A DNA stretch of 44,142 nt from Chromera velia. Taxonomy: Eukaryota > Sar > Chromeraceae. A program made the translations under genes and the position numbers. Position 1 is the first letter of the stretch. Each line of letters starts with the position of its first letter. Location: positions 1 to 44,142 of the forward strand of contig JAHBMJ010000605.1 of the NCBI GenBank assembly GCA_018398765.1, read 5' to 3'. Below, in pieces: positions 18,614 through 44,142 of the stretch. A model generated the notes under the pieces. It saw nothing but the letters and a program-made list of their open reading frames with translations. It was not told where the DNA came from and searched no databases.

Positions 18614-20190
18614 TCCGCTTTCGTTTAAAAGAACGAACGGTCGTAAAAAAACACTATAGTGACTAGTAAGACCGGTGATCGACGAGCTTAACTTTATTTT
18701 TATGTCATACTCACCATCATGCATCACCTAGTGCATCACCACCATAAACCTATAGTCATAACTAGGGTCATAAACCCTAGCATAAACCATGCATCATTTT
18801 AGTGAGTGTAGTGATTAGTGGTGCCCTAGAGCACTGTCGCCGTTTTATCTCATAGAGGTCGCCCCCGCATACAGGTTTACAAAATTACATTGTGTTCACT
18901 ATTTAGGGCTGGAGCCCTAGGCCTGCCGCCTACGTAGCAGTTGTCTGACGTCCTAGCTGACGTCCGTCTTGCACCATATATACATCCATGCGCATTACTA
19001 AGTATATTACTCTACACCTAGCTTCATACATTTCCACACCATACTACATACATACATGTAACGACACATCCCATCGATCATATACCATCCGAGTCACTAT
19101 CGGATCATATATCCTAGTATACATGATGATACATCGAATGATCTTCAAATGAGTGTTTAATTTAAATTCTATATTGTCTAAGTATGACCTAGAGTGTGAC
19201 ATATAGTGTGGTATGTGATTGCTATATATATGTCTTCATTGAGGTCATCGATCATCAGAAAAAAAAGTTGTTATAAACTCGGTGCTAGACTCCGAGTCGG
19301 TGTAAGGACTATTTTTTTTTGTTTGAAAATCACTCCTATAGGATTCAATAAATACAAATTTAAAAACTGAGTTAAACTGTATCAAAAACCGTATATAATT
19401 CAACACATAAATTTATTGGTACGTTTAAATATATGTATAGGGAAAACACAAGAAAATGCTTAAATTAAATTAATTTGAAATGAAATAAGTCTTTATAGAA
19501 AAAACGTATTTTTTGTTGCAAGATCTGTACAGTACAGTCTAACCATACAGACTGTACCGGCGAACTCGAATCTTTATCCCCGAATTAAAGTTCTCTTGTT
19601 CATTATAGCCTAGTCGTTCAAGCTCAAGTTAGCCTACCACCAAACTGCCTTTCTTAATAAAATTTTATGATGTTTGCTTCATGTACTTGACTATCGCACT
19701 CCGAGTCTGATCGAGTGGCTGCCTCTTCAAGTTCTTTTTTTAACCAAAAAATTAAGACAAAGCTATACAAAACCCTGAAGACCTTCACAAGTGACGGAGC
19801 TAGCTGTGTATTCTTGGCTACCCCATATGATTACCTTAAGGTGTACTTGTTAGCGCAACATGGCATGTACATGGCATGTCTTTGGGGCCACGGTCAAAGC
19901 TAGCCAATTTTGATCAATCAATCGAGATTTCGATTGACATGTACGTTTGCAACACTGCACTGCAGAAACCGAACTGATCGACCGTTTGTCTAGGGAAAGT
20001 ACTGAACCAACAGAACTTCTGAATGTGTTGAGAAGGGATCTGTGAGCTCTAGACTTAATTCAAGAACAGTCAGACTGGATCCTAGTAGATCTTAGAAGTA
20101 GTAAGAAAGATAGTAGGACAGATTGTATTTATATCAGCGTGTCAGACTCCTGTGTCGCTATATCCGATTTTCTTCTCTTTCCTTCATCCC
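18614..20190. other. Intergenic, no gene seen
   Basis: AT-rich with many stops in all frames. Short palindromic pieces occur, such as the 'cggtgctagactccgagtc' region near 19280-19305. It separates the transporter stop from the 3' end of the retroelement. Confidence 0.6.
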
Positions 20191-20378
20191 TAAAGGAGAT
20201 TCTAGGAAATTGAAAGTCTCTTCTAACAGCTGAGATCCTATGTTGTCTGTGTACAAATGTATCGGTAGGAGCACACAGTCAATCTACCATAATCCAGTAC
20301 AATCCAACAGGCTGCTGTCTGATTCAATTGGAATTTATCGAATACATGCTAATTACATGACATACAAAAAACGCATGC

Positions 20379-20441
20379 ATGCGAAAAACCATCGGAGACT
20401 GACGCTTCGCATACACGCCGAGCTAAACATTAATAGCTCGG
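20379..20441. repeat. Two hairpins in the element 3' UTR
   Basis: Stem 1 pairs ATGCGAA (20379-20385) with TTCGCAT (20406-20412). Stem 2 pairs CCGAGCTA (20418-20425) with TAGCTCGG (20434-20441) around an 8-nt loop. Both stems are intact in copy 2 (for example 26229-26252) despite nearby substitutions. They could be part of an RNA recognised by the RT. I could not fit the surrounding sequence to a hammerhead core. Confidence 0.5.
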
Positions 20442-20561
20442 AATCAGCATGCCAATTAATCGCAGTATTACGTCGATCCTTGCAAGTTGATGGATAGACC
20501 GTAGGCATGATTAGAGAACACACGTAGTGTCCCGCGCGCGACGCCCCTCCGTATCCATACC

Positions 20562-20581
20562 GCTGTCTCTTGTCTATCGCT
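20562..20581. other. Conserved 20-nt 3' UTR block, copy 1
   Basis: The sequence 'gctgtctcttgtctatcgct' has one mismatch to the identical 20-mers of copies 2 and 3, and lies about 75-95 bp past the RT stop. Confidence 0.55.
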
Positions 20582-20655
20582 GACGGTTCTCAGGTGTACT
20601 TGCGGAAGTAAACGACAACAAAAGGCCGTAACGTTAAAAATCAGTCATATGTAGA

Positions 20656-22320
20656 TTATTTTAGAACAAAACAAAGAAAGGACAAACGCGCCTTCCAAAG
20701 AGAACGAAGACCATCATCACCAGTCTGACGGACTGCAGACATGAATAAATCAAGCAAAAATGAAACAGGCCATCTCAAAATATACAACTCCAAAAACAGA
20801 AAAGTAAGTTTGTCAACCAGGACAACCGCAAATACATTACAAGAAAGAAGTGTCCGGATAAGATGAGAGGATATTAGGCCCTTCTTGGCCGAAACAGAAG
20901 GAACACAGGAGAAAGCATGCATCAGACGCACTCTACGAAGTGAAGGTAGGTTAAGAAAAGACGACCATCCTCCAGAAATGGGCAACAGAGAAAAAGCAAC
21001 CAAATCATGAAAGAAATTAAAAAGAACATCACGGTTAGGATTAACAGCAGCAAAAAGCAAAATCGAAGGAGATTCCAGCAAAGAGAAAAGATATAGACCA
21101 AGCACCGTAGATCCCTTCTAACGCTCTAAAATGCATGTAGGACTGTAGAAGTCTTCCTCAAGTAACTTTTCCATCATAGGGTCATCCGACACGTCACTCA
21201 TACCACAGTCAGACCTAAAAACAATCGTTCTATCGTCCATGTATCTCCCTGCCATCCATTTTTCCCCCTCCCATGAAGGCTTCAATCTCATCAATGCAAT
21301 AGAGTACTCTTTCTGCGCGGCAAAAAATCGGGCCCCACCAGGAGAGTATGGACTCCTTTGAGGAAAACCTTCATGCTGTCTGACCATCTTCCGTTGAACC
21401 CAAATTACATTCAAAACAAAATCAAGATTAATTATACGAGCCAGCATATCAAGAGGGCAAGAAAGTGTATTCGTATAATTGCAGTGGAAGGATAAAAAAG
21501 CAACAGGTTTTAAGTAACGTCTCCGAGAATACCACTTCTCACCCTCTCCCGGACCCGCCTCCTTAATATAAAAAGACTTATGGGTGGGCAACACAACAAA
21601 GCGATATCTAGAGGAAGAATGAATGAAATAAACAAAGTCATTCAAACAAGAAAGGAAATCAGCTCTGGGTAGAGAGGGAAAAAATGCTTTGATGTCATCC
21701 ACCAACAGACCAAGTCCACCCTAAGGCTAATACGAATTAGAAGAAACACACGAGCTATGATCTGCAAGTCTCCTAAACCCTGAATTAAATATCCCAACCT
21801 TATCCTGAAAAACAAAGACAGAGTCAAAGTCATAATGTGGCGAAAAGTAAGAAAGACAGCCATTCAAAGCCTTGCAAAGGAAAGAGAAAATCTCACGTCT
21901 GGCGTGTCTCTTGTAAGATACCAATGGCCTGTATTTCAAAGAGGACCAAGACTCAAGGAGCTCCCCCTCAACTCCCCAAGACTTACGTTTCACCCAAAGG
22001 ATCCCAATCCCAAAGTAGTGTTTCTTCCTGTCGAATTTCTTGAACTGATTCAAAAAAGACACCCATGTATCCTTTTCATTCGGAAAACCATTCTCCAGAA
22101 GGTCCAAACAAGCAGAAAACTCACCCTCCCCAATTCTTCCATAAGAAGAATAAAAAAGAAAAGCTCTCGCCACTGCCTCAATGTAGTTCCCTTTACATAA
22201 AAAAGCCAGATCTCTTCTGGCCTTGTCAACTGGCACAACCGTTAGAGCAGTCAATAACTTTCTGATTGTCATAGACTTCCTTGGGACGGCCGGCCCCTTT
22301 CTTATTTGCCTGAGCATACG
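20656..22320 (-). pseudogene. Reverse transcriptase region of copy 1
   Basis: This frame follows the proposed +1 shift. Order of motifs: VVPVDKARRDLAF (the DK-containing finger block), SSLKYRPLVSYKRHARRE (motif 2-like), DDIKAFFPSLPR (motif A), EGFPQRSPYSPGG (motif B), then RYMDD at 21246-21232 (motif C, catalytic Asp pair) and CILER leading to the thumb. The thumb continues in the same frame after a TAG at 21118-21120 and ends at 20656. Two further stops (TAG CCT TAG, just after SCVSSNSY) replace Trp codons that copy 2 still has. Without these point mutations the frame would be about 554 codons. The enzyme would copy element RNA, probably primed by the endonuclease nick. Assignment rests on the A/B/C motifs and their order; the subfamily is inferred from the fused GIY-YIG. 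Confidence 0.8.
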
Positions 22321-22327
22321 AAAGCGT
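22321..22327 (-). other. Candidate +1 frameshift site ACG-CTT-T (copy 1)
   Basis: The endonuclease frame is conserved through RERWVSTL (ending CTT). The RT frame is conserved from the base after the following T. Copy 3 switches at the aligned position (ACC-CTT-T). CTT followed by T allows the Leu tRNA to re-pair on TTT after a +1 slip, as at known CTT-type +1 sites such as in yeast Ty elements. Confidence 0.5.
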
Positions 22328-24261
22328 TGAAACCCACCGCTCCCGAAGGTCGACAATCATTGCAGGAGACAAGACCCCTTTCATCGACCTGCCTCTTGTA
22401 TTCTCCCTCCCCCTCCCCCTTCCCATTGTCCTCCCTAGACCAACCCCCTCCCGAGTGCCACCATCAGAAGTGAGAACAAAACGGAGGAAAGACTCAATAC
22501 CCTTCGAAACAACATTCCATGCACCAGTGTTAGGCCATAATTTGGCCTTGGAAGAAAAGTGAGGAGGAAGAGAGAAGAAAGATCTAAGAGAGGAAGACGC
22601 AGACAGTAGATAACACACATGACCATCAAGCAAAGGAAGATCAAATAATTCCGCAATCTCTCTACAACGACACGATGATCCACAAGAAGAACATTCACCC
22701 CCTCCTCCTTCCCCACAAATCCCATATGTATTGTCTAAAATCTGTTGAAGATCAGTCAGCTTAGTGGGGAGAAGGCAAAGCCTCACGTTTGATAATGGAG
22801 ACACAGTTTTCCTTATCTCCTCAAACATGGCAAAATAAAAAGATCGGAAAAAAGACAAGTCAGCGAGGGGCACCCGAATCGTAATCAGCTCCCCTCTGAG
22901 CAAAGTCGCTGCTGACCAGCCATTCAACTTGCACATTCGTCTCACATTCAAGTCAAAAGTTGCCTTCCCTCCCCCAAGAATCCCGCCCCTGGGCACCATG
23001 CACATACATGCACTCAAATCATTCTTTGTCGCATCAAATGAACGAAGAGGCGAATCGGGAAGGACCTTCTTGAACAATGCAGTCAGCAATCGTGCACGAA
23101 AAAGAGAAAATTTAATCACGTCCCCTTCCCCTCTCTTCGCCCCTACACCCTCTTCGCCAGTGACCCTGTAGAGGAAAAGGGAGCGAGATTGGAAAATGCC
23201 CCCTCTATCAACTCTTCCCGCCAACTTCGACATGTGAACAGAAGATTCAAGTCTCTTTCTCAGACTTGAGACCCTGTCACTACACCTGTACGCAATTGAG
23301 CGAACATCCCTTTTATTAGGGTCCCTCAGATTACGCACCAGGTCATTCTTGAATCTCCTCAACACACCAACTGTATTCCATGTAGGTTTGTATGCACGAC
23401 TACATAAGTATTCCATCATGCGCAAATTTATCGGACCACCCTCAATCTTTGCAATAGGAAGGATAACAAAGAGGCCGTATCTGGAAGCATCAGCAGACAG
23501 AACAGAATAGAAGCGATGTGCATACCCATGACCCGTCTTATTACATTTCTTCCCAACGTGACATGGTTTTAATGCACTCGTGAGGTGCTGAAAGAACCGA
23601 TTGAGCGCCCTACCAACGGTACTTCTAATATAAAAGCCTCTCTTCCATCGTGACCAAATCAAATATATTACTCCCTTGTCCCACCATGATGCATCCTCTC
23701 CCACCCCAGTACAAGCATCCTTGACCTCTCTCAAAAAGGAAGAGTATTTCGTATCAGACAGACCCAACCATGTAGAAGCAGCCAGCGAATGGGAATATAC
23801 AAGTCTCTTCAAACATTTCTGACCAAACCCTCTCTTAAAGACAGTCCGAAGCTTGCAAGAAGGATTCATCACATCCTAGGGGACGCAGGCATAACATGGA
23901 GAGTGTATGAAGGTGGCTGTGTTGTCTGAATGACAAGAACCGTCGTCAACGGGCAATCGCATCTGTGAATCTCTGATGCGCAAACAGGACAGGCTTGAAC
24001 TGCGTGCACATGGAGGGATGCAACAAACATCCGCACCCCAGCCAATCTGAGGGAAAGACGATCAAGGTCAGACTCCACTTTCTCTCTGACACTTTCCCTA
24101 CCAAAACCCCTTCCATTCCCTGTATCCTTCTCAATCACTCCAACCAGTTCCCTCACTTTCTCATGCAATTCATCAGACAAAGACAACAAAAAAGAAGAAT
24201 CAAAATTAATTTGAACATTCAACTGACCACTGTTCCTCCCGATATGCTCTTGAATCCCTAG
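22321..24261 (-). pseudogene. ORF2 of copy 1: GIY-YIG endonuclease, Cys motif and RGG-like linker
   Basis: About 645 codons. The frame starts directly after the ORF1 stop TGA, with no ATG until GVRMFVASL about 70 codons in, which is already inside the region conserved with copy 3. An N-terminal domain of unknown function (about 150 residues, with CPVC) is followed by GIY-YIG: GVIYLIW at 23674-23654, FYIRST at 23635-23618, RFFQH, then RMMEYLCSRAYKPTWNT with the conserved Glu and terminal Asn. The YIG Gly is Arg here (it is YLG in copy 3). Later come a Cys cluster (SSCGSSCRC), a DGHV motif and an Arg/Gly-rich linker ending at RERWVSTL. One base is missing near 23870 relative to copy 3, breaking the frame. 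Known GIY-YIG domains of Penelope elements nick target DNA for priming. Confidence 0.75.
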
Positions 24262-24264
24262 TCA
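24257..24264 (-). other. Candidate stop-codon readthrough site TGA-CTA-GG (copy 1)
   Basis: The ORF1 stop reads TGA CTA GG on the minus strand. The downstream ORF2 is in the same frame. The identical eight bases occur at the same place in copy 3 (43446-43453). TGA CTA G is an established high-readthrough context in mammalian genes and is related to alphavirus readthrough sites. Confidence 0.55.
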
Positions 24265-25920
24265 CTCAAGTCCCACCTGGCGACCTCCCATTCCCTTCCC
24301 CCCCCCTCCCTCCTTCTCCTGTTGTAGACAGAGAGCCTCAACCCTCTTCTTCTGTATGATGAAAGCATAAACGAGTTCCAGAAGGTCACAGCCCTCCAGA
24401 TCCCCGTCCACTGCACTGTCCCTCAGTGCTGAGATCATCTCTCTCCTCACCTAGCCCCTCCGTGTTTCACTGCACATGACAGACACCATCAGTCTGGCAT
24501 CATCCATACATTTTTGCCAGAGTTTCCCCCCCAGACCTCCATTCTTCGGTTGTCGATACACCGGAAGGTCGACCAGTGTCTCATATGCGATCCTCCCACC
24601 TACCATCGGCACATTTGGGGGGAAGATTTGCATTTCATTCATTGTGGGCCTGTCCCTCCCGGCAGACGACGGTCTGAAGGGCGTCACAGCTCTCTTTCAC
24701 ATTTGCTGACCCTCCCCCTCTCTCTCCCCCATAGATCTTGGAGTCACAAACCCCGAGTCTGTGTTTCCTTGCTTCCCCTCCGAGGAATGCGTTACCTGCC
24801 TCACTCGCTTAGGTGACCCTGCCCCTGTCTGCCTACTAAAGCTATCCTGCATCCCTCCCCCCCCCCACCCCGTTCACCCCTGTATTACCGTTCACTCTCG
24901 GCCTTCCGTTAGGCACCATCAGACTAATTCCCCCATCCCCCTTCTTCCCATCATTCATCCCTCTATTCACCATTCCACTCCCCCCAGTCTGGCGTACATC
25001 CACCCCTGTGTTCGAAATCCCCTTCTCTGTCACCCCAGCGCCATCTACATCTACATCCTTAACTGTGATCCCCCCTGATTGGATGTCACAGGTCGGGTAC
25101 ATAGAGTGTTTCCCACCCATTGGCCCACTCCCCCCTCCTCTCCGAGTTTTCTTCATCTCTCCCTGAAGACGAACAACCCGCCCATGAATTTCCATGACTC
25201 CATGCTCTTTCACCATCTCCGCCACTGAGCACAACATCTCACTCGCCACATCTACCTGTGCCCCCGCTCTGGCAGCTATATGTTCAGTGGCCAGGTGTGC
25301 ATCAATGTATGCAGCCCCCTCGCTTCTCACTTTGTTCGTCAGCCTTCAGTTATATTCTCTGTATTCCATTCCCTTCTGCATCATCATATACTCCCTTCTG
25401 GATTTTGTGAACACCCCGTCGAGCGGCATCTGAAGCATTAGCATCAATACCCCCTCTACCATCTCATCACACGCTTCCTTCACCTCCATCATTCCAATAT
25501 GTGCCTTTTCGTTTATCTCTCCCCCTTTCTTCATTTTCCTCGACGGCACGATCAGTCTATCGTATGCCTGTTTATTTATTACCTCCACCTTTATAGAGGA
25601 CTCGAGGGCATCTTTGTTCATGGCTTTCAAATTCGCAGCGTCTGCCACCCTCATCTTCACCAGGACCCATTCTGTCATTCCCGTCTTCTCTGTGTCGAAC
25701 GTATGGACGATGACTTCGTCCGCCTTCAGCTCATGACCCGGCAAATATGGTTTCATAACCATTCTATCAGGGAACCTCTTCCTTAGCTCAATCATTCTCC
25801 CCGTATCTGGAAGCGCCTCTTCCACTTCCATCTGACCAAGCCGTTCTTTCACTGACTTGTACATCTCTGAGTCCCTCAAGTGCCTACGAATCAGTTTACA
25901 GGGACAGCAAAGAGACTGGT
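24262..25920 (-). pseudogene. ORF1 of copy 1, unknown function
   Basis: I do not recognise this protein. Pieces in transcript order: 25920-25346 (starts near a CCPCKLIRRH stretch, possibly zinc-binding; first ATG at SEMYKSV), an in-frame TGA, then 25330-24842 (helical AHLATEHIAARAG region, then Gly-rich), a frame change at a G run near 24860, and finally 24687-24262 with an in-frame TAG at 24451. The last part matches copy 3 well: PSSAGR, VPMVGGRI, LVDLPVYRQPKNGGLGG and LRDSAVDGDL all have counterparts. Its position before the endonuclease suggests an RNA-binding or chaperone role like other ORF1 proteins, but that is inference. The stop at 24262-24264 is conserved with copy 3; the other stops are not and look like decay. 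Confidence 0.55.
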
Positions 25921-26372
25921 CTCAGGACTTCAGTGCATGCACGTGACGGTCTATAGAATTCCAAGGTTCAAGGCAAGGAGCCAACCCGGAAAAAGAATCT
26001 ATAAAGAAGATTCTAGGAAATTGAAAGTCTCTTCTAACAGCTGAGATCCTATGTTGTCTGTGCACAAATATGTCGGTAGGAGCACACGGTCAATCTACCA
26101 TAATCCAGTACAATCCAACAGGCTGCTGTCTGATTCAATTGGAATTTATCGAATACATGCTAATTACACGACATACAAAAAATGTATGCATGCGAAAAAC
26201 CATCGGAGACTGACGCTTCGCATACACACCGAGCTAAACATTAATAGCTCGGAATCAGCATGCCAATTAATCGCAGTATTACATCAATCCTTGCAAGTTG
26301 ATGGATAGACCGTAGGCATGATTAGAGAACACACGTAGTGTCCCGCGCGCGACGCCCCTCCGTATCCATACC

Positions 26373-26392
26373 GCTGTCTTTTGTCTATCGCT
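26373..26392. other. Conserved 20-nt 3' UTR block, copy 2
   Basis: Identical over 20 nt ('gctgtcttttgtctatcgct') to 39759-39778 in the divergent copy 3, at a matching distance past the RT stop. Confidence 0.55.
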
Positions 26393-26466
26393 GACGGTTC
26401 TCAGGTGCACTTGCGGAAGTAAACGACAACAAAAGGCCGTAACGTTAAAAATCAGTCATATGTAGA

Positions 26467-27625
26467 TTATTTTAGAACAAAACAAAGAAAGGACAAACGC
26501 GCCTTCCAAAGAGAACGAAGACCATCATCACCAGTCTGACGGACTGCAGACATGAATAAATCAAGCAAAAATGAAACAGGCCATCTCAAAATATACAACT
26601 CCAAAAACAGAAAAGTAAGTTTGTCAACCAGAACAACCGCAAATGCATTACAAGAAAGAAGTGTCCGGATAAGATGAGAGGATATTAGGCCCTTCTTGGC
26701 CGAAACAGAAGGAACACAGGAGAAAGCATGCATCAGACGCACTCTACGAAGTGAAGGTAGGTTAGGAAAAGACGACCATCCTCCAGAAATGGGCAACAGA
26801 GAAAAAGCAACCAAATCACGAAAGAAATTAAAAAGAACATCACGGTTAGGATTAATAGCAGCAAAAAGCAAAATCGAAGGAGATTCCGGCAAAGAGAAAA
26901 GATATAGACCAAGCACCGTAGATCCCTTCTAACGCTCTAAAATGCATGTAGGACTGTAGAAGTCTTCCTCAAGTAACTTTTCCATCATGGGGTCATCCGG
27001 CATGTCACTCATACCACAGTCAGACCTAAAAACAATTGTTCTATCGTCCATGTATCTCCTTGCCATCCATTTCTCCCCCTCCCATGAAGGCTTCGATCTC
27101 ATCAATGCAACAGAGTACTCTTTCCACGCAGCAAAAAATCGGGCCCCACCAGGAGAGTATGGACTCCCTTGAGGAAAACCTTCATGCTGTTTGACCATCT
27201 TCCGTTGAACCCGAATTACATTCAAAACAAAATTAAGATTCATTATACGAGCCAGCATATCAAGAGGGCAAGAAAGTGTATTCGTATAATTGCAGTGGGA
27301 GGATAAAAAAGTAACAGGTTTTAAGTAACGTCTCCGAGAATACCACTTCTCACCCTCTCCCGGACCCGCCTCCTTAATATAAAAAGACTTATGGATGGGC
27401 AACATAACAAAGCGATATCTAGAGGAAGAATGAATGAAATAAACAAAGTCATTCAAACAAGAAAGGAAATCAGCTCTGGGTAGACAGGGAAAAAATGCTT
27501 TGATGTCGTCCACCAGTAGACCAAGTCCACCCCAAGGCCAATACGAATTAGAAGAAACATACGAGCCACGATCTGCAAGTCTCCCAAACCCTGAATTAAA
27601 GATCCCAACCTTATCCTGAAAAGCA
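26467..27625 (-). pseudogene. RT palm/thumb fragment in copy 2
   Basis: It starts inside the fingers and contains the intact Trp-Pro-Trp site that copy 1 has lost, then DDIKAFFPCLPR, EGFPQGSPYSPGG (the standard PQG form of motif B), RRYMDD and CILER. It shares with copy 1 the in-frame TAG after CILER (26929-26931), followed in frame by the thumb to 26467. Apart from the 5' truncation and this TAG it looks undamaged. The shared TAG is absent from copy 3, so it arose before copies 1 and 2 split. Confidence 0.8.
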
Positions 27626-27656
27626 AAGCTCTCTCTCGGTCAGAAGCTTCTCCGCC

Positions 27657-28097
27657 ATGTCTGCTCCCTCTCATTACTCTAGCGTTCCTCTTTTTAGTCT
27701 GTACTATGAAGATGGAACATATAAGGAATAACAAGTCTTTCGCGAGGTTCTTGAATCAGTCCTTGCAGTATATTTGAACCGTAACTCTCGTCTCCATTCG
27801 ATCATTCTTGTCGCCGGTCAGAGAAAGGATAGACGTCCTAACACCCACTATATGCAGATTGTAAGGATAGCTTTGGACACTGCTATGGCTGCCCGTGCTC
27901 AGAATATTGATCCCATCCGCAAGAAAGACGTCATTGACTCTATCGAAAAGAAGGTTCTTGAGGACGCTCTGCGTCTTTGTCTGGATCTTCTCGCTGCGGT
28001 TCATGTCATCGAACAACAGGAGAAAGAATCGATTAAGGATTTCCGCGAGCGTTTCTACAAGCTCATTGGCAGTTACAATGCACTGGAAAGATCTTAG
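27657..28097 (+). pseudogene. Gag-like ORF with an in-frame stop
   Basis: From ATG 27657 (MSAPSHYSSVPLFSLYYEDG) the frame runs 24 codons to a TAA at 27729-27731, then continues in the same frame to TAG at 28095-28097, about 146 codons in total. The C-terminal half is helical and charged; its ESIKDFRERFYKLIGSYNAL segment resembles the end of retrotransposon gag domains of copia/gypsy type. No protease, RT or zinc knuckle follows; downstream is AT-rich non-coding DNA. The copy 2 retroelement ends about 30 bp before the ATG, so the insertion may have separated the ORF from its 5' region. The family call is tentative. Confidence 0.4.
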
Positions 28098-32296: not shown

Positions 32297-33875
32297 CGGT
32301 CATTTTGACGTATTGCCGCGAAAAACTTTTACCGAGCGCGGCAAGCGGCCTTCATGAAGTGCTCAGCCGATATACAGGCGCTCTCAGAAAGAGGATTTCA
32401 CGACGGTCCTCTTTGGGTCTCTTTTGGTTCTCTAAATGTGCCAGGTGACTTTCTTAGCGGGCAGATCTTCTAGTTAGGTGGTATAAGGCAGGTTTGCGTC
32501 AAAAGAATGGCTTCCAACAGTGTCTGGATGGTCGAGAACCGCGAAATGTCGATTCGGGTTATTCTTCGACTTCCTGCTCAGACCAATCTCCTAAGGTATG
32601 ACACTCTGCAGACACTTTATAATACACAAGAGTTCTAGCAGCAAGAACTGCATTTAATACATTTATTTTCACCCGTCCACATCTTTTTTTGAAGAGAAAA
32701 CATCTTGATATACAAGAAAAACACGTTTTCATGGTGGTTTAAAAGAAAAGGGGGGGGTTCTGCACGGTTACAGGTCGGGTACTAATGTTAGTTCCAGCTC
32801 TCCATACGATGGTGGTTCTTAAACCGATAAACTCATAATGGGAACTTCTGGAACTCATCTGAACCATCAAAAACCAAAGCACTTGCAATTCTTGGTTCCA
32901 TAAAGTTTTTCATGCAAAAGAACTTAAAACAAAGTGAAATAAATATAATAAAAGGTTTTATCATTTGGTTTAGGGGGGGGGTGTTTTGGTTCCTAAACCG
33001 CCAGAACCGGCAAATCAGAACTTTTGTTGGCATCAACATGTTTTTGAGTGTTTTTGGGTTAAAATCGTTCAAAAACTGGTAGACTTTTCATCTTTATTTG
33101 GTTTTTTTGGTCCAATAACCACAAAAAACATGTTTTGACCTGTTAATATGTTGTATACGGGATAAAAAGGGGATATTGCTGAGTGAAACTGACTGACGAG
33201 GCTCAAGAGTGTCATACCCTAGCCAATCTCTTCCCTCTAGTATCAGCAAAAGAGGCTACTGACATGGTCAGCTGGCATAGCAGGACTCCTTGGGTCCGTG
33301 GCCAAGTGCTATCCAAATGGGAGAGTAAATGATGGCCTCTAACCGAACTTTGACCTTCGACTCTGGTTGCTCACTGAGATGGATGTCTGACTCAGACTGA
33401 ATTCTATGAGCAACCAGAGTCGAAAGTCGAAGTTCGGCTAGAGGTCACCATTTGCTCTCCCATTTGGACAGCACCCGGCCATGGACCCAAGGAGTCCTGC
33501 TATGCCAGCTGACCATGTCAGTAGCCTCTTTTGCTGACACTATATAGAGGGAAGAGATTGGTCTGAGTAGGAAGTCGGAAAATAACTCGAATCGGCATTT
33601 CGTGGTTCTCGACCATCCAGACACTGTTGGAAGCCATTCTTTTGACACAAACCTGCCTTACACCACCTAACTAGAAGATCTGCCCGCTAAGAAAGTTACC
33701 TGGCACATTTAGAGAACCAAAAGAGACCTAAAAAGGACCGTCGTGAAATTCTCTTTCTGAGAGCGCCTGTGTATCGGCTGAGCACTGCAATACATGCAGG
33801 CATGAAGGCCGCTGAATTTCTTGCCGCGCTCGGCAAAATTTTCTTGCCGCGGTGGCAATGCGTCAAAATGACCGG
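32297..33875. mobile_element. Large foldback (inverted-repeat) element
   Basis: The left arm (32297-33373, interrupted by a MITE) is complementary to the right arm (33407-33875). Landmarks: CGGTCATTTTGACG at 32297 pairs with its complement ending about 33875; the inner ends 'ctctggttgctca' (33361-33373) and 'tgagcaaccagag' (from 33407) are perfect complements around a 33-nt loop. The arms are about 440-470 bp without the insert, with scattered substitutions and small indels. No coding capacity is seen. It would extrude a very long hairpin. Confidence 0.85.
32591..33222. mobile_element. 632-bp TIR element (hAT-like MITE) nested in the foldback arm
   Basis: 16-bp terminal inverted repeats CTAAGGTATGACACTC (32591-32606) and GAGTGTCATACCCTAG (33207-33222) differ at one base. 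The element is flanked by an 8-bp target-site duplication, CCAATCTC (32583-32590 and 33223-33230). The uninterrupted right arm of the foldback has a single CCAATCTC, which confirms the empty site. An 8-bp duplication fits the hAT superfamily (P elements also make 8 bp). The interior is AT-rich and non-coding. Confidence 0.85.
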
Positions 33876-33903: not shown

Positions 33904-34700
33904 GGTAATCTAACTAATGAAGAGTCAAATGTATATCTAGATATATGTGGCAGCTGCACTAACAAAAAAAATGAGCCCCATTTTTAAAGGGCATCTTGGC
34001 TGTGAACTTTGTCTCTATTCTTTTCCATTATTATAGTGGTGTCAGTATAAACACTCCAATTGTGGACCCGCTCATAGTCATCAGGCAGTCAGTCAGAGAA
34101 AAGAGAGCTCTATATGCAAGGAACGGGGTTGCACATACAGAGAGGAAGGTAAAAAAGTGAAATCTGCATTGCATTTTTCCTCCCTTCTGCTTTTTTCTAC
34201 ACATGCTTTCACTACCAGAGGAACCAAAACACCCGTATTTTTGCCTCAAACCTGTCGGGTAATCTTTGAAAATATAGGAGACCTTCAATCAAGTATCCAA
34301 TTTTTAAGATGTCCACTGAGAGTCTCTCCAGAAGACGACATGTTGCCATATAGCAATGCATTCACACAAAGCACAGAAAGGGTTTGCCAGACGCATACTG
34401 TTGTTTGCTTTCCTTACCCATTGCATCTGCTCGACAGAATTTATACCTGGCTAGGCACCCGGGCCTTGCATTACACACAGTAATGCACAGGCAGGATCTC
34501 CGCTGCTGAGGTGTTTCATACAAAGATCCATAAATGTTCTAGCTTCACGGTCAAAGCAGGTATGTACAAGTTTGGCTGAGAGAGGAATACATATAAAGAT
34601 GGAGGGATCGACATGCTCACAGAATTCTACTGCGTATAGCCCCGGAAAGCACCTGTGTATACAAATTTGTATTAGGTGACTCTTCATGATTCGGATTACC
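33904..34700. mobile_element. TIR element copy A, about 797 bp
   Basis: It begins GGTAATCTAACTAATGAAGA and ends in the imperfect complement TCTTCATGATTCGGATTACC. Flanked by TA on both sides, consistent with a TA target as in Tc1/mariner-type elements. Similar throughout to 35225-36010. Short ORFs inside both copies (for example with PSIFICIPLS) are similar to each other but have no recognisable domain. Confidence 0.75.
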
Positions 34701-34826
34701 TAAGGAAACTTTATTTTCAGAAAGGAACAATTTGGGAAGTCGGAATGAAGTTGGGGCTGTGACAAAAGATGCACTGGGCAAAATCTAACTCTATCAATTT
34801 TTTCCCCATTTTTTGGCTTGCTACAG

Positions 34827-35224: not shown

Positions 35225-36010
35225 GGTAATCCAACTAATGAAGAGTCAAATGTATGACAGCTGCACTAGCAAAAAAGATGAACCCCATTTTTGAAGGGCA
35301 TCTTAGCTGTGGACTTTGTCTCTATTCTTTTTTATTATGGTGGTCTCAGCACAAACACTTGAATGGCGGACCTGCTTGTAGTCATTAGGTCTAGTCATCA
35401 GGTAGTCAGCCAGAGAAAAGAGAGCTCTGTATGTAAGGAACGGGGTTGTATATGCTGCATTGCAGAGAAGAAAGCAAAAAAATGAAATCTGCATTGCATT
35501 CTTCCTCCCCTCTGCTTCTTTTTACACATGCTTTCGCTACAAGAAGAACTAAAACAGCCATATTTTTGTCTCAAACCTGTCGGGTAATCTTCATAAAATG
35601 TAGGGGACTTTCAATCAAGTATTCAATTTTCAAGATGTCCACTGAGAGTCTCTCCAAAAGACGTCTGACTCATGTTGCCATATAGCAATGCATTCACACA
35701 AAGCACAGAAAGGGTTTGCCAGACGCATACTATTGCTTGCTTTCCTTACCTGTTGCATCTGTTCGACAGAATCTACACCCGGACCCTATATTACACACAG
35801 GCAGGGTCTCTGCTGCTAAGGTGTTTCATGCAAAGATCCATAAACATTCTGGCTTCACGGTCAAAGCAGCTGTGTGGAAACTTAACTGAGAGAGGAATGC
35901 ATATAAAGATAGAGGGATCGACACGCTCACGAAATTCTACTGTGTGTAGCCCCGGAAAGCACCTATGCATACAAATTTGTATTGGGTGACTCTTCATGAT
36001 TTGGATTACC
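35225..36010. mobile_element. TIR element copy B, about 786 bp, same orientation as copy A
   Basis: Ends match copy A (GGTAATCCAACTAATGAAGA ... GATTTGGATTACC). The left flank is TT and the right TA, so a TA duplication is not preserved on the left. Overall similarity to copy A is high, with frequent transitions and small indels. Confidence 0.75.
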
Positions 36011-37708
36011 TAATGTAACCTACGAATGCCTAAAAAAGTAGGGTATTTTTTCACTCTAAGTTTAACCAGGGATGGTAGCCTTTTTTTGCGGCATTTTCTT
36101 TCCCTCAGTATGAATATTCATATGCCTGACCGGCTGTCAATCATCAGCTGCCAGTCAACCAAAAGACTAACAGCCCGAAGGGTTGGGTACTTGCAGACAG
36201 GCAGGTGCATACATGCATCCATATAGAGTCACCCTCATCCCAACACCCCTCTTCAAAAGAGAAACCACTTGGTCATCGTCTATCTACCTTGCTTACCCTT
36301 TTCCTCTTGCGTTCTTTGCATTGTGCATTAAATATTCTCTCCAATTTCTTCCAGCTGAGGCACAAGACACAGATCCATGATGGCGGCGCAGCCGCCATTC
36401 CCCCCCCCCTTACTTAGCAAAAAGCGGCCTCCTCTACACTTTTTTACATAAAAAAAAACAAGCTATTTTAACCTGAATTGAAGTGGCTTCATCCGGACAA
36501 ATCGGCATGATGATGGTTTGAATGTTGCTTTCTGTCTCTCTAACACCCTTATCCAGCACTTTTCAGATGAACAGATCCATGTATAAATGAATAAAAACAC
36601 TCTGCATGTGTTTTTGTATGCAATCAGCTCGACATGCTGATCGTGCGTTGCACGCACGAACACCCAGCCAAGCTGCCCCAGGCAGTCGCGTCACATACAC
36701 ATAAAAAGAGTTCGTTTATTAGTGAGTATTCCTATAGCTGTAGGACACAGATGTGTATGATGCGCATACACGTAGACTGTAGTATAACAAAGTGGACTCC
36801 AAAGTAGGACTTAGTGGAATTCAAAGTAACTTTTAAATTTACTATATTCTAGCTTTATTATAAAGTAAAACTTGATGATTGAGGTTTTTGTTATGCATGC
36901 CGCGTCCCCGTGTATGAGGGGCAGATCTAGCCTAGTCTGCCAAAAGGTTCCGGTTCGTCCCGTCTGTTCTGAATCTAGGAACACTGCTCATTGATCACTT
37001 TTACTGCGGCTTATTTCTTAAGCGGCGATAGAGTAGAACTTGGAGAACAACGAAAAGAAGGGAGAGGCAGAGCAAAGTTACTTAAAGCAATCTAAAGTTT
37101 TTTAGAGCATTTAAAATCGTTACTTCTGTGCAAATCTGCTCAAATATGCTCAAAAGACTGGTTGATTAGCTAAGGTGCATGGTGGGAAAAATTACGATCA
37201 CCGTGGTATATAGAAGTTAGTGAATGTTACCTGCAAAGAAATACATAGACACAACACTAATGGATATGCTCAACAACAACGTTTAGCGCCGCCAATCAAG
37301 TATAAAGAATTGCTTCTTCTACAAAGGAAACAGTGCAGGAAGGAGGGTTTCACAGCTAGGCTGGTCAGACCGGACAGGAGATGGTCAGCAGGGGTCAGAG
37401 AGGATTCTGAAGAACAGAGCACAGAGACAACATAATTTTATTCACAAAGAACTCACACTCCACGGCGTAAAAGCTTGCAAATCGTTCTATGTGTGTCAAT
37501 GAGAAACTGTGAAAAAGAAGGACAGGTCTGTAGGTAGATCCAGATATTCAGAGGGAGACCAGTACGGAGTGCCATAAATGAGAAAGGATGAGTGAGTAAG
37601 GAGCACTTGCGTCAGAATAGTATGGACCGCTTTGAAAGACTGACACACAAGGAACAAGTGGAAGACATTCAAATGCATGAAAGCTGAGCGATTGGTCTGG
37701 GTGGAAAA
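36011..37708. other. No convincing gene
   Basis: A strong polypyrimidine-AG acceptor-like site occurs near 36355 (ctccaatttcttccag), but the following frame stops soon. The rest holds only short ORFs without motifs. Confidence 0.45.
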
Positions 37709-38460: not shown

Positions 38461-38615
38461 AGGTTCAGGATTCCGCAGTTTTGAACCTGTGGACCTTCAA
38501 GATGGACAAAAGATTTCAGACCCGATTATTGGCCAACAGAGGCAAAGTCGGCTGCATGCGTCGAAGGAACAGGGTGCCGCCACCCCCTCTGGCAAAAAAC
38601 TCGTTCTCATAATTG
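38461..38615 (+). CDS. Candidate exon overlapping a palindromic element
   Basis: Bounded by the acceptor 'tttgctcag' and the donor ATTG|GTAAGG. The best frame reads GSGFRSFEPVDLQDGQKIS and later GKKLVLIIG up to the donor. The last 22 bases lie inside the left arm of the palindrome at 38594-38924, so the donor site appears to be supplied by, or duplicated in, that element. The protein is unknown. Confidence 0.35.
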
Positions 38616-38924
38616 GTAAGGAGATAGAAGCTGAAACTTTGTGTAAGAAGACGTTGTAATGATAGAAAAAAAACCATGAAACAGATTTTTTATATCATTT
38701 CTAAAAATATAGGCTACCATACAAATTTTATGAGTTTTTTGCCATTTTTTAACGGTTTTTAACAATAAAAAAAGGTATAAAACTCACAAAATTTGTATGG
38801 TAGCCTGTATTTCTAGAAATAATATAAAAAGTCTGTTTCATAGTTCTTTTTCTATCATTACAACGTCTTCTTATAAAAAGTTTTAGCTTCCAACTCCTTA
38901 CTAATTATAAGAACAAGTTTTTTA
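38594..38924. mobile_element. Palindromic (foldback) MITE-like element, about 330 bp
   Basis: Arms of about 150 bp: 'ctaccatacaaattttatg' on the left matches the complement of 'cacaaaatttgtatggtag' on the right, and the outer ends match around 'aactcgttctcataatt' and its complement near 38900-38920. The centre is an AT-rich loop near 38750. No ORF. Confidence 0.85.
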
Positions 38925-39862: not shown

Positions 39863-41548
39863 TCAACCAAGAACAGTAAAAAGAAAGAAAGTTCTTTCAT
39901 TCCATAATGCGATCAATGAAGGACTCCTCGAACGAGCAATGACACCAGAAAAAACCTTCACAAGAAAATGAAAAGGCCAACAAAGAAGAAAGCATTCAAG
40001 AAAAAGAAAAGTCAGCTCATCAATAAGAACACAAGCAAGGGCATTACAGGAAAGCAAAAAACGTAATACATTCAAACTCATCTGTCTGATCATTCTCTGC
40101 AACCGAGGAATGCAAGAAAAACTATGGATGAATCTAACTCTCTTCAGGGTAGGAAAGGGAGGGAATAGAAGAGCATTATCGAAATCATGGGGGCAAGAAA
40201 AGGAAAAAGCATAAAGGTCATAATATCATTCGACGAGAGCATCCCGATTAGGGTTTGCAGCTGCAAAAAGCAAAATAGAGGGTGCCTGTTGGAGAAAGAA
40301 AATCCGAAGCCCCAGCACCGTGGAGCCTCCCTCTCTTTCCAAGACACATTCAGGACTGTAAAGATCTTCCTATAAAAGTAAAGCAGGAGGGCTCCCATCC
40401 CAAAGACTCATTATATCAGAAGAAGCACAGCCAGGAAAACGAATAAAAAGAGAGCGGTCATATCTATATATCGTGCACCAAACCATGACTTGTCTTCCCA
40501 AGATGAAACAGAGAAAGAATCAGCAACCGAGAACTCTTGCCAGGCTGCAAAGAATCTAGCCCCCCCAGGAGAGCATGGACTCCTCTGAGGGAAGCCTTCT
40601 TTCTATCAAATCAGTTATCCATGAACATGAATCAGATTAGTATGAAAATCAAGGTCAACAATCTCCGGTAGGACATCAATAGGGCATGAGATGGTATCTG
40701 TGAATCTGTTGTGAGAGGATAAGAAGGCAACAGGCTTTACATATTGTTTGCGTGACACCCATGCCTCTCCATATGCCTCCCCAGCCTCCTTCTTACAGAA
40801 AGGATGGAACTTCAGCAGAACAATATATCTGTGTCGAGATTCTACCTTCACCCTCGTGACGAACTTTCTAAGTGACAACAAAAAGGCATCGCGTGGGAGG
40901 GAGGGGAAGAAAGCCTTGATGTTATCAACAACCATCTTAATGTGACCAACAGGCCAATCAGGCTTCAGCAAAAGCCGTTCGGACCGATCAGCGGAATGTC
41001 CATACCCGGCGTTGAATTTAGACACACATTTCTAAAAAGAAAAAGTCGAGTTCAAGTCACAGTGAGGACCGAAGTAACAAAGCAAGCCATTTAAACATTG
41101 ACATGCAAAGGAAAAAAGAGACTTACGTCCATGCAAAGCATATGAGACAAGCGGCCGATATTTGATTAACGACCAGCCCGCGGGCAACCAACCATCGTCC
41201 CTCCAAGACTTCCTTTTTGCCCATAGAAGACCAGTCCCAAAACGATGCTTCCTTCTATTCAAGGGACCTAAACATAAAAGAAAAGACTTCAGGGCAGTAG
41301 ACTGGTCCGCAATGCCACTCGCCAGATCATTAACAGTGCAATCAAGGTCCGCCTGTTGCAAGACAGCATACGATCCGTTATCGATGAAAGCTGCTCTTAC
41401 AGCTTGGCTGTACTTCCATGCATATAGAAAGGCTAGATCGCCCCGAGCCTTATCCACCGGGACCACAGCCAACATATCCAACAACTTCTTCACCACCCCA
41501 GCCTTCTTCGGAAGAGGAGGCCCCCTCCTCAGAGCATGGAGCACATAA
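39863..41548 (-). pseudogene. RT region of copy 3
   Basis: Contains VVPVDKARGDLAF, SLIKYRPLVSYALHGRK, DNIKAFFPSLPR (motif A), EGFPQRSPCSPGGARFF (motif B), and RYID in place of RYMDD, after which the frame is lost. The thumb is recognisable from CVLEREGGSTVLGL to LNVLRFLLSCNALACVLIDE, ending at 39863. At the site where copies 1 and 2 have TAG it has Glu-Gly, so that stop is not ancestral. In-frame stops at 41032 and just before motif B make it non-functional. Confidence 0.75.
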
Positions 41549-41554
41549 AAGGGT
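41548..41554 (-). other. Candidate +1 frameshift site ACC-CTT-T (copy 3)
   Basis: Aligned with ACG-CTT-T of copy 1. The RT frame upstream of this point is closed by a TGA only four codons before, so the switch must occur within a few codons of CTT. Confidence 0.5.
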
Positions 41555-43450
41555 AGTCACCCACCTCTCTCTTAGGTCTGCCATAACCGCCACAGACATA
41601 TCTCCGCCACCCCCCCTCCCCTGACCATGCCGGGCAGAGCCGAAACGTCCCCTTCCGCAACCCCTTGGGGAGACAAGAGAAGAAATAAAAAAGTCAATCC
41701 CCTTCTCAACTATTGCCCACAATCCACTGTTCGGCCATAATTTACGTGAAGATGAGAAATTCAAAGGGAGAGAGAAAAGCAAACGGAGAGACGGAGAAGA
41801 AGAAAGAAGTGCGCATGCATGTCCCTCCAGAAAGGGTAGATCGAGAAGTTGAGCGATTGAATTTCGAATGCAAGGACAATCATCATGCAAGTTACCATAC
41901 AATTCAGAAGGAGCATCACAACAAACCTTATGTATATTGTTAAGCATCTGTTTCAAATTCTTAAGTTTTGACGGCAGGAGTCTCAGATAAACTAAGCTCT
42001 GCGGAGCAACTTCCTTTCTGATCAATTCAAACTGACAAAAGTAAAAAGCCCTGAACTTTAGACAGTCAGCAAGCGGAAGGCGAATAAAAATCGACGTCCC
42101 TTTCAGTATCTCCATCATTGACCATCCATTTAGTTCACATAGACGTTTAACGTTCATGTCGAATGTCTGTCTGCCTGTAGCAAGAATTCCCCTTCTCGGA
42201 ACCCTCCTCACACATGCCTTGATATCATCCTTACTGGCATTGACAGATCTGATCAACCTATCAGGAAGCACCTTCTTGAAAAACATCACAAGAAGTCTAT
42301 CATAAAAAAGAGAAACATATGCATTCCCAGACTCATCCCCCCTTTTCCCACCCACTCTCTGCATAAATTCATCACGACAGAGGAAAATACCTCCCCTCTC
42401 AAGTTTCCCCGACTCCTTCATTATGCACAGAGAGGAGCGAAGCTTGTGTCTTAGCTGAATGTAACCTGAACCTCTCTTGCACGCACGGGCAGACAAACGG
42501 GAGCGTTCAGGTTTCAGTTCAATCGAAGGGTCATTCCTTTCCTTCCTCGAGACATCCACAGTATTCCACATCGGTTGATATGCTCTAATACAAAGCAATT
42601 CCATCATACGAAGACTTATCTGTCCACCATCCACCCGTGCCAGAGGCAATACAACGAAGAGAGCATGACGAGAAGTATCACTAGACAGTACTGAGTAAAA
42701 ACGATATGCATACCCCCGCCTAAATTTATTCGCTGCCCGACCTCCCCTCCTTGATCGCAAAGCCGCATAGAAGTGCTTCATGATGCGATCAAGCGCCATT
42801 CCCACCGTACTCCCGAGGTACAAGCCTCTCTTCCATTAGGACCAAACCATGTAAATCACTTTCCTGTCCCACCACCCAGTATGCCCACCTGTTTCTCTAC
42901 ATGCACTCCTCACCTCCCTTAAATATTTACTGTATGCACTATTCCCCAACTCAAGCCAGACAGAAGCAGCGATACAATGAAAGAGGATCAATCTCCTCAT
43001 GATCTTCTGTCGACATTTTTTCCTGAACAAGGTCCGACTGTATGACCACGCCCTACATTGATCATCAGGAGATTCTGAAGCCGGCATCACCTTCAAAGTG
43101 TACGAAAGAGGATGGGAAGGCTTAGCAACCAAGACAACTGTCAACGCGCATTTGTATGTTTCCACTCTCTGTGCACAGACCGGATATGGTTCCCCCCCAT
43201 GTACATTAAGTAGTGCAATAAGCATCCTACACCCACCGAGCTTGAGTGTAAGACAGTCTAACTCAGCCTTGATCCTTTGCCTCACGTTCTCCCTGCTAAA
43301 GCCCCCATAATCCCTCAGATCAGTATCAAGACAGTCATTCAACCCTGCCAACTCATCCCTCATTTGGTCTACCATAGATGAAAAGAAAGAAAAATCAAAG
43401 GCCACATCAAACATGCACTGATCAGAAAAACAGTCCATCACAGGTCCTAG
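41549..43450 (-). pseudogene. ORF2 of copy 3: GIY-YIG, CPC motif, Arg/Gly-rich linker
   Basis: One continuous frame from the ORF1 stop to RERWVTTL with a single TAA at 42836-42838 inside GIY-YIG (VIYMVWS, stop, WKRGLYLGSTV). YLG is intact, followed by KHF, RRGYAYRFYSVLSSD and RMMELLCIRAYQPMWNT with the conserved Glu and Asn. A CPC motif and EGHAC precede a Gly/Arg-rich linker. Unlike copy 1 it has no deletion near the MPAS segment, so it shows the undamaged reading frame there. Confidence 0.75.
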
Positions 43451-43453
43451 TCA
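43446..43453 (-). other. Candidate readthrough site TGA-CTA-GG (copy 3)
   Basis: Identical eight bases and same frame relation as in copy 1, between ORF1 and ORF2, although flanking codons differ. Confidence 0.55.
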
Positions 43454-44142
43454 ACCATGTCCCTCCCTCTTACCCTGTCCCTCCCCCCTCTCAGCAAGGA
43501 GTCCATGTAGATGCTGCCTTGCCACCACTATCGCGTAGATCAGCTCGGTTAGGCCTAGGGAATCCAAATCCCCCTCGACTGAGCAGTCCCTGAGGAAGGA
43601 GAGAACTTCCTCCCTCGCCTCCCTGGGACTTGTTTCCTGCCTTATGATAGCCTCGATTGTTCTCGTTTTGTCCATGCTATACTGCCATCTCTATCCCCCC
43701 AACCCACCATTTCTGGGCTGCCTGTACATAGGCAGATCTACGAGGTCAGCGTAGTTAATCCTCCCTCCATCCATTGGGACACTCGGGGGATGAATCCGGT
43801 GTGCGCTTAGCACCTTCCTCCCCCTCCCCGCAGATGCAGGGCGGAACCGAGGGACCGCCCGTTTTGGGGTCCTGTGTTCCGCCTCCTCCTCTCCCGACCT
43901 CGGTATGGCAAAGCCGGAGCTCGCCCCTCCGTCATGTTCCCCCGACGATGCCGATCTGACCCGATCCCTTTTTGTGGAGCTCTCTCTCATCTGTGCACCT
44001 GTATCCATACTCTGCACTCTGGCCCCCATCACCAGCCTATCCCTTCCCTCCGGTACCGATAGACTCATTCCTCCCCTCCCACCCCCCCTAGGCCTGCTCC
44101 TGGGTCTGCCTGTCCCATTCCTCCCAGTACCTCCCCCCCCCC
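43451..44142 (-). pseudogene. ORF1 of copy 3, partial at the window edge
   Basis: Two in-frame parts: 44068-43691 (ends LPMYRQPRNGGLGG then TAG) and 43675-43451 (LRDCSVEGDL, LTELIYAIVV, ending EGHG then TGA). Corresponding segments are present in ORF1 of copy 1, but the internal TAG is not shared. Function unknown. The N-terminal part lies beyond the window. Confidence 0.6.

Follow-up and report, generated by a model that had tools for sequence, protein, structure and literature searches.

How is a reading frame translated when the frame before it ends in a stop codon and it simply continues from there? The window, by which we mean the whole stretch of 44,142 nucleotides analysed, poses this question twice. 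On its minus strand, in one copy of an element family that we call F1 and one of a second family, F2, an upstream frame (ORF1) runs up to a TGA and goes straight on, in the same frame, as ORF2. The two junctions, candidate readthrough sites at 24257-24264 in F1 and 43446-43453 in F2, both read TGACTAGG (from 24264 to 24257 and from 43453 to 43446), with the stop codons at 24264-24262 and 43453-43451. A sequence-only reading had noted these eight identical bases, flanked by protein similarity that is poor next to the stop and good farther out on both sides, and our comparisons between families agree on each of these points. The 8-mer alone is uninformative, since two occurrences are found in the window and 1.29 are expected; its weight comes from its position between two ORFs in the same frame.

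Structure and class of the elements

The F1 copy is a decayed element of ~6.1 kb (20191-26331, minus strand, as are all element features below) whose ends are common to other F1 loci. Its 5' terminal direct repeat, or pseudo-LTR (26002-26331), is 96.7% identical over 330 bp to the 3' terminal direct repeat (20191-20520). Terminal direct repeats of ~330 bp are paired in 8 of 20 fetched F1 loci; upstream of the window copy lies instead a tandem, 5'-truncated F1 copy (26002-27628), 96.9% identical to 20191-21817, which makes a 1.6-kb repeat. ORF1, taken from the first ATG of the open frame to the junction stop, spans 24262-25864 and is broken in this copy. The first part of ORF2 (22226-24261, frame broken near 23870) contains a conserved N-terminal region, then a GIY-YIG-like region (23585-23674) and a CxC (22664-22672), the first with columns invariant in our alignments A1 and A3 and the second itself invariant in both. 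An RT with YMDD (21243-21232) follows, in a frame that is +1 to ORF2 and carries stops (20656-22356). In the F2 copy, the 3' part of ORF1 (43454-44142) is cut by the window end, the first part of ORF2 (41450-43450) has one stop, at 42836, and the RT region (39863-41556) is decayed.

On an F1 relative (L033), the GIY-YIG profiles PF01541 (E 0.042, 14.6 bits with a cut-off of 22.6) and TIGR01453 (E 0.045) match the same residues, and the motif residues are invariant in alignment A1; GIY-YIG profiles gave no match on a second relative (L107), none in Pfam on a third (L108), and none on the seven window pieces. RT profiles also match below their cut-offs (TIGR04416, E 0.011; RVT_1, E 0.18), and an AlphaFold model of the RT had a pLDDT of 32 and was not used. 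If both domain calls stand, the endonuclease precedes the RT with the CxC between them (C529 and C531, invariant in A1), and pseudo-LTRs and tandem truncated copies are found as well, as described above. Structure, motifs and sub-threshold profiles thus make F1 and the three families related to it (F2-F4, below) probable Penelope-like elements of the N-terminal endonuclease type, probable rather than proven because both enzyme profiles are sub-threshold and the RT model is unusable.

Relatives elsewhere were not found with either an F1 piece or alignment A1 (8000 candidates scored each), and none was confirmed in viral_contigs and genome_contigs. A PDB sequence search returned no match for the RT piece and E 0.85 or worse for A1, and no Rfam family reached the gathering threshold in the window. 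The A2 query recovered a single EukProt protein (P0001, 97 residues) named Prorocentrum lima, an RT fragment 89% identical to F2. Prorocentrum lima is a dinoflagellate, and the fragment could be due to horizontal transfer, to shared ancestry (a true relative) or to contamination.

Other repeats were also observed. A long tandem array with self-match offsets at multiples of ~29 bp occupies 852-2894 of the window, two near-palindromes of ~330-340 bp (33223-33561 and 38594-38923) match their own reverse complements at 87.6% and 86.4%, respectively, and 33948-34703 is repeated at 35255-36013. Elsewhere in the genome, one F1 copy (L039, on contig C180) contains a 958-bp direct duplication, 99.9% identical, ~1862 to 3778 nt past the junction stop, which is either a recent event or an assembly effect.

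Conservation of the stop and its context

The assembly searched comprises 177.8 Mb in 4040 contigs. The start of ORF2 had at least 103 matches with the F1 query, at least 110 with F2 and at least 126 with F4, in lists that overlap. The 103 F1-query rows reduced to 88 places once we had set aside fragments lacking the ORF2 start and further pieces of a copy already listed. All but one of these places were read (87/88), the exception, C2251, having a match that starts at residue 34, and L099 (C3629), with unrelated sequence upstream of ORF2, was excluded from the junction count. The resulting 86 ORF1/ORF2 junctions fall into four families (F1 45, F2 17, F3 5, F4 19); no fifth family was recognised among the at least 126 matches to the F4 ORF2 start, with C870 (67%) and C972 (21%) left out.

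Collected genome-wide and aligned, 86 of 86 junctions have a stop codon in frame at the same place: TGA in 80, TAA in six (four F1, two F2) and a sense codon in none. The six TAA copies count against readthrough. They fit G-to-A decay, because the G of the stop is read as A in 8.9% of F1 and 11.8% of F2 copies, compared with a mean of 6.1% and with 5.6%, respectively, at other G columns. The next four bases, at +4 to +7, read CTAG in 66/67 F1-F3 copies (45/45 in F1, 16/17 in F2 with one TTAG, 5/5 in F3); in the 19 F4 copies they are CTGG in 17, CTAG in one and GTGG in one. Position +6 is therefore A in F1-F3 and G in 18/19 of F4, while the elements of the readthrough signal, UGA, C, U and G at +7, are present in the majority of all four families. 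A different stop context, which would have spoken against the sequence-only reading, does not occur at the family level beyond CUG replacing CUA in F4, nor does ORF2 lie in another frame: it shares the frame of ORF1 in all four families, even though no two of the four representatives have a linker of the same length from the last ORF1 helix to the stop. When 20 F1 loci were aligned across ORF1 and ORF2, only the junction proved to be a stop in every copy (20/20), the next column reaching 7/19.

This context is kept across considerable divergence. Family representatives are 32-46% identical over 134-139 residues of the ORF2 N-terminus, and where they share one of eight degenerate amino acids, they use the same codon in 13-39% of cases. 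Over the TGACTAGG site, 8/8 bases are identical in F1-F3 and 6/8 in the four families, compared with 10.3% and 3.4% of the 175 columns that flank it; the chance of such identity at random codon starts is 4e-6 and 7e-6, respectively. Among the Leu codons of seven element ORFs, CTA makes up 8.1%. The 14-mer GGTTGACTAGGACC has 16 matches in the genome, 13 at F2 junctions and three at F3 junctions, and its reversed control has one. Within families, 7-column windows as conserved as the site or more number 18 of 343 in F1, 177 of 343 in F2 and 83 of 343 in F4, which counts against readthrough. Such unexceptional conservation is expected of young, decaying copies, and the within-family comparison lends no support.

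Up to the TGA, ORF1 stays open over 565 codons in L037, which belongs to F1, and over 538 in L109, which belongs to F3. It is similar between F1 and F2 (E 1e-42, the relation to F1 being shown with L108) and between F3 and F4 (E 3e-46), and only weakly so between F1/F2 and F3/F4 (profile E 1.5e-4 at a probability of 25%, BLASTP E 2.1), another point against readthrough. On the other side of the stop, codons ~10-70 of ORF2 match from family to family with E values of 1e-14, 8e-12 and 3e-5. We measured selection as nonsynonymous/synonymous changes over expectation, using variants present in at least three copies. The values for the ORF1 and ORF2 sides are 0.63 and 0.65 in F1, 0.24 and 0.19 in F4, and 0.87 and 1.12 in F2, the last on counts of 3 and 0; all F1 variants pooled are near neutral (ORF1 side 1.00). 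Coding conservation on both flanks, a point raised in the sequence-only reading, is borne out between families and mixed within them, F1 and F4 falling below 1 and the ORF2 side of F2 above it.

Probable readthrough and its alternatives

We think it likely that selection maintains the TGA at the ORF1/ORF2 junction as a leaky stop, at which programmed UGA-CUR-G readthrough would yield ORF1 and an ORF1-endonuclease fusion. Our commitment to this explanation comes from the match with published readthrough motifs. In human, UGA CUA forms the consensus for high readthrough, and values seem to peak with G at +7 (PMC4359377); UGA CU is a core readthrough motif in fungi and animals (PMC4207609), and UGA CUA G has been termed a high-TR motif (PMC12233894). 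Most ribosomes would terminate at the UGA and release the ORF1 protein. A minority would insert an amino acid there and continue in the same frame to give the fusion, which with the RT part added would be an enzyme polyprotein, and the ratio of ORF1 to fusion would be governed by the bases around the stop, as in gag-pol readthrough. Conservation of the junction supports such a fusion; that ribosomes pass the stop, how often they would do so and what ORF1 does are the parts we infer.

Three further observations count against readthrough. For UGA CUG, the context of F4, no readthrough value was found in the literature. No 3' RNA fold was found downstream of the stop in one copy per family (z +1.78, +0.96, -0.06 and -0.48). 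In Tca2, a UGA separates gag and pol, but the junction gave no readthrough in yeast (PMC2194720).

The same Tca2 junction holds a cryptic promoter (PMC2194720), and reinitiation is known from LINE and SART1 elements (PMC5972666), so ORF2 might be initiated on its own, by reinitiation after the stop, at a non-AUG start or from an internal promoter. We judge this unlikely. In F2, 88% of copies have an in-frame ATG at codon 13 of ORF2, and a CTG directly follows the stop in F4, as initiation within ORF2 would allow. However, conservation of ORF2 begins at ~codon 10-15, upstream of any in-frame ATG in F1 and F4. In the 20 F1 loci, ORF2 has its earliest ATG in frame downstream of conserved sequence, at codon 78 in 16, codon 80 in one, codon 62 in one and codon 42 in two, and the majority letters of F4 contain none from -60 to ~+120. 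The window F1 copy, said earlier to have no early ATG, indeed has its first at codon 78, and F3 has its first at codon 37. A conserved ATG ahead of the conserved part of ORF2 is accordingly absent from F1, F3 and F4, F2 being the exception with its codon 13. Furthermore, F1-F3 have CTA, not CTG, after the stop, and separate initiation leaves both the kept frame and the kept context unexplained.

The conserved bases could instead belong to a 3' splice site, with TGACTAG as branch point plus TAG, so that the stop would be spliced out or ORF2 joined to another leader. TTGACTAG does resemble a branch site with an acceptor, introns are present in some Penelope elements (PMC3846280), and GGTGAGG occurs at -186 in 84% of F1 copies, though its phase does not fit. 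This is very unlikely, and we reject it for want of a conserved in-phase GTRAG donor within 240 nt in any family (at most 2% of copies). F4, with CTGG in 17/19, is without the AG there, and an intron exceeding the short linker would delete the conserved ORF1 C-terminus.

It is highly improbable that UGA is routinely read as an amino acid, through a code change, a suppressor tRNA or selenocysteine, or that the RNA is edited. Naiad elements carry selenocysteine UGAs. Perkinsus mitochondria read TGA as Trp, and candidate suppressor tRNAs have been discussed (PMC9550989). Against this, the codons at F1 reference Trp positions are TGG in 179 cases, TGA in five and TAG in nine, on which we reject a code change to UGA = Trp; no other TGA in the frames is common to all copies, and Rfam, whose library includes SECIS families, matches nothing in 20000-27700 at E values up to 1. 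The absence of TGA from the seven ORFs used for codon usage is no evidence, because these were picked as open. Finally, a functionless stop inherited by chance in elements moved in trans, which the decay of most copies and the near-neutral pooled F1 variants would suit, is scarcely credible given the same stop and context in four families this divergent, with both flanks coding.

A candidate +1 shift and comparison with known systems

A second candidate recoding lies farther downstream. Unexpectedly, the RT is in the +1 frame of ORF2 in F1 and F2, a shift that is absent from F3/F4. The zones of the candidate shift are 22292-22336 in F1 and 41519-41563 in F2. Judged from the coordinates of matches (69 for the N-terminus and 63 for the RT, chosen from contigs with both), the RT frame of F1 (n=37) is +1 in 22, 0 in 11 and +2 in four; F2 is +1 in 12/16, F4 in frame in 7/7 and F3 in 2/3. 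At the DNA level the spacing is the same in 17/17 F1 loci reaching the zone (15 by pattern, L035 and L041 by eye), and 12 of 13 F2 loci (12 fetched plus the window copy) pass to the RT block by +1. One of these 12, L121, has a later insertion; in L116, an insertion within the zone brings the RT block into frame with ORF2. ORF2 and RT are continuous in 4/4 F4 and 2/2 F3 loci.

F1/F2 have a spacer of 40 nt and F3/F4 one of 30 nt, too small an excess for an intron to be likely. CTTT and GCTC are common to F1 and F2. Counting against frameshifting, the F1 RT frame contains ATGs inside the zone, at which separate initiation may take place; the F2 loci shown have no ATG between the upstream RT-frame stop and the conserved GP block, and most have one ~9 codons later. 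We give about even chances to the full proposal, that of a Penelope-like lineage, probably alveolate, with two recodings, UGA-CUR-G readthrough in F1-F4 and a programmed +1 frameshift from EN to RT in F1 and F2, giving tiers of ORF1, ORF1-EN and ORF1-EN-RT. Within one genome, F1/F2 and F3/F4 would then offer a natural contrast between double and single recoding.

The host's alpha-tubulin has its nearest PDB entries in 7tnt and 7miz, from Toxoplasma, and this, taken with the assembly size, suggests a chromerid such as Chromera velia as host. The Chromera velia genome is 193.66 Mb with ~30 Mb of TEs, and the word Penelope does not occur in the text searched of its genome paper (PMC4501334). A 2025 paper places the first report of Penelope-like elements in TSAR in Ectocarpus (PMC12477816); should the host be an alveolate, F1-F4 would widen the range of these elements. 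The sequence-only reading knew of no readthrough in this class, and the open literature searched, with PMC3846280 and PMC12477816 included and the clade's main paper not covered, yielded no description of readthrough or ribosomal frameshifting for Penelope-like elements. The junction would be a candidate signal for setting protein ratios in these elements, common to four families and directly testable with a reporter.

N-terminal-endonuclease Penelope-like elements (Chlamys/Naiad) were reportedly described by Craig et al. in 2021. Chlamys/Naiad-type elements have one main ORF, with Sec UGAs in some animals. F1-F4 resemble them in having the endonuclease ahead of the RT, the CxC between, pseudo-LTRs, tandem truncated copies and no hammerhead found, and differ in having a distinct ORF1 that is linked through a UGA in frame and, in F1/F2, in the +1 shift needed to reach the RT. 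Ty1/Ty3 also use +1 frameshifting, which is mentioned in PMC9550989; F1/F2 likewise reach their RT by +1, with a candidate shift site that is a zone rather than a pinpointed position. In gag-pol readthrough, as in MuLV (PMC5009743) and in the UGA arrangement of Tca2 (PMC2194720), an upstream protein, an in-frame stop and an enzyme domain follow one another as in F1-F4. However, MuLV uses UAG with a pseudoknot (PMC5009743), whereas no 3' structure was found in F1-F4, which belong to an unrelated element class. In sequence, the junctions resemble the UGA CUA G genes LDHB, MDH1, OPRL1 and AQP4 (PMC4359377, PMC4207609, PMC12233894), with which F1-F3 share the same heptanucleotide and F4 shares UGA CU and the G at +7. 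Those genes are cellular and gain short C-terminal extensions, while the extension in F1-F4 is an enzyme; if readthrough is true, the UGA CUA G signal would extend to a retroelement polyprotein.
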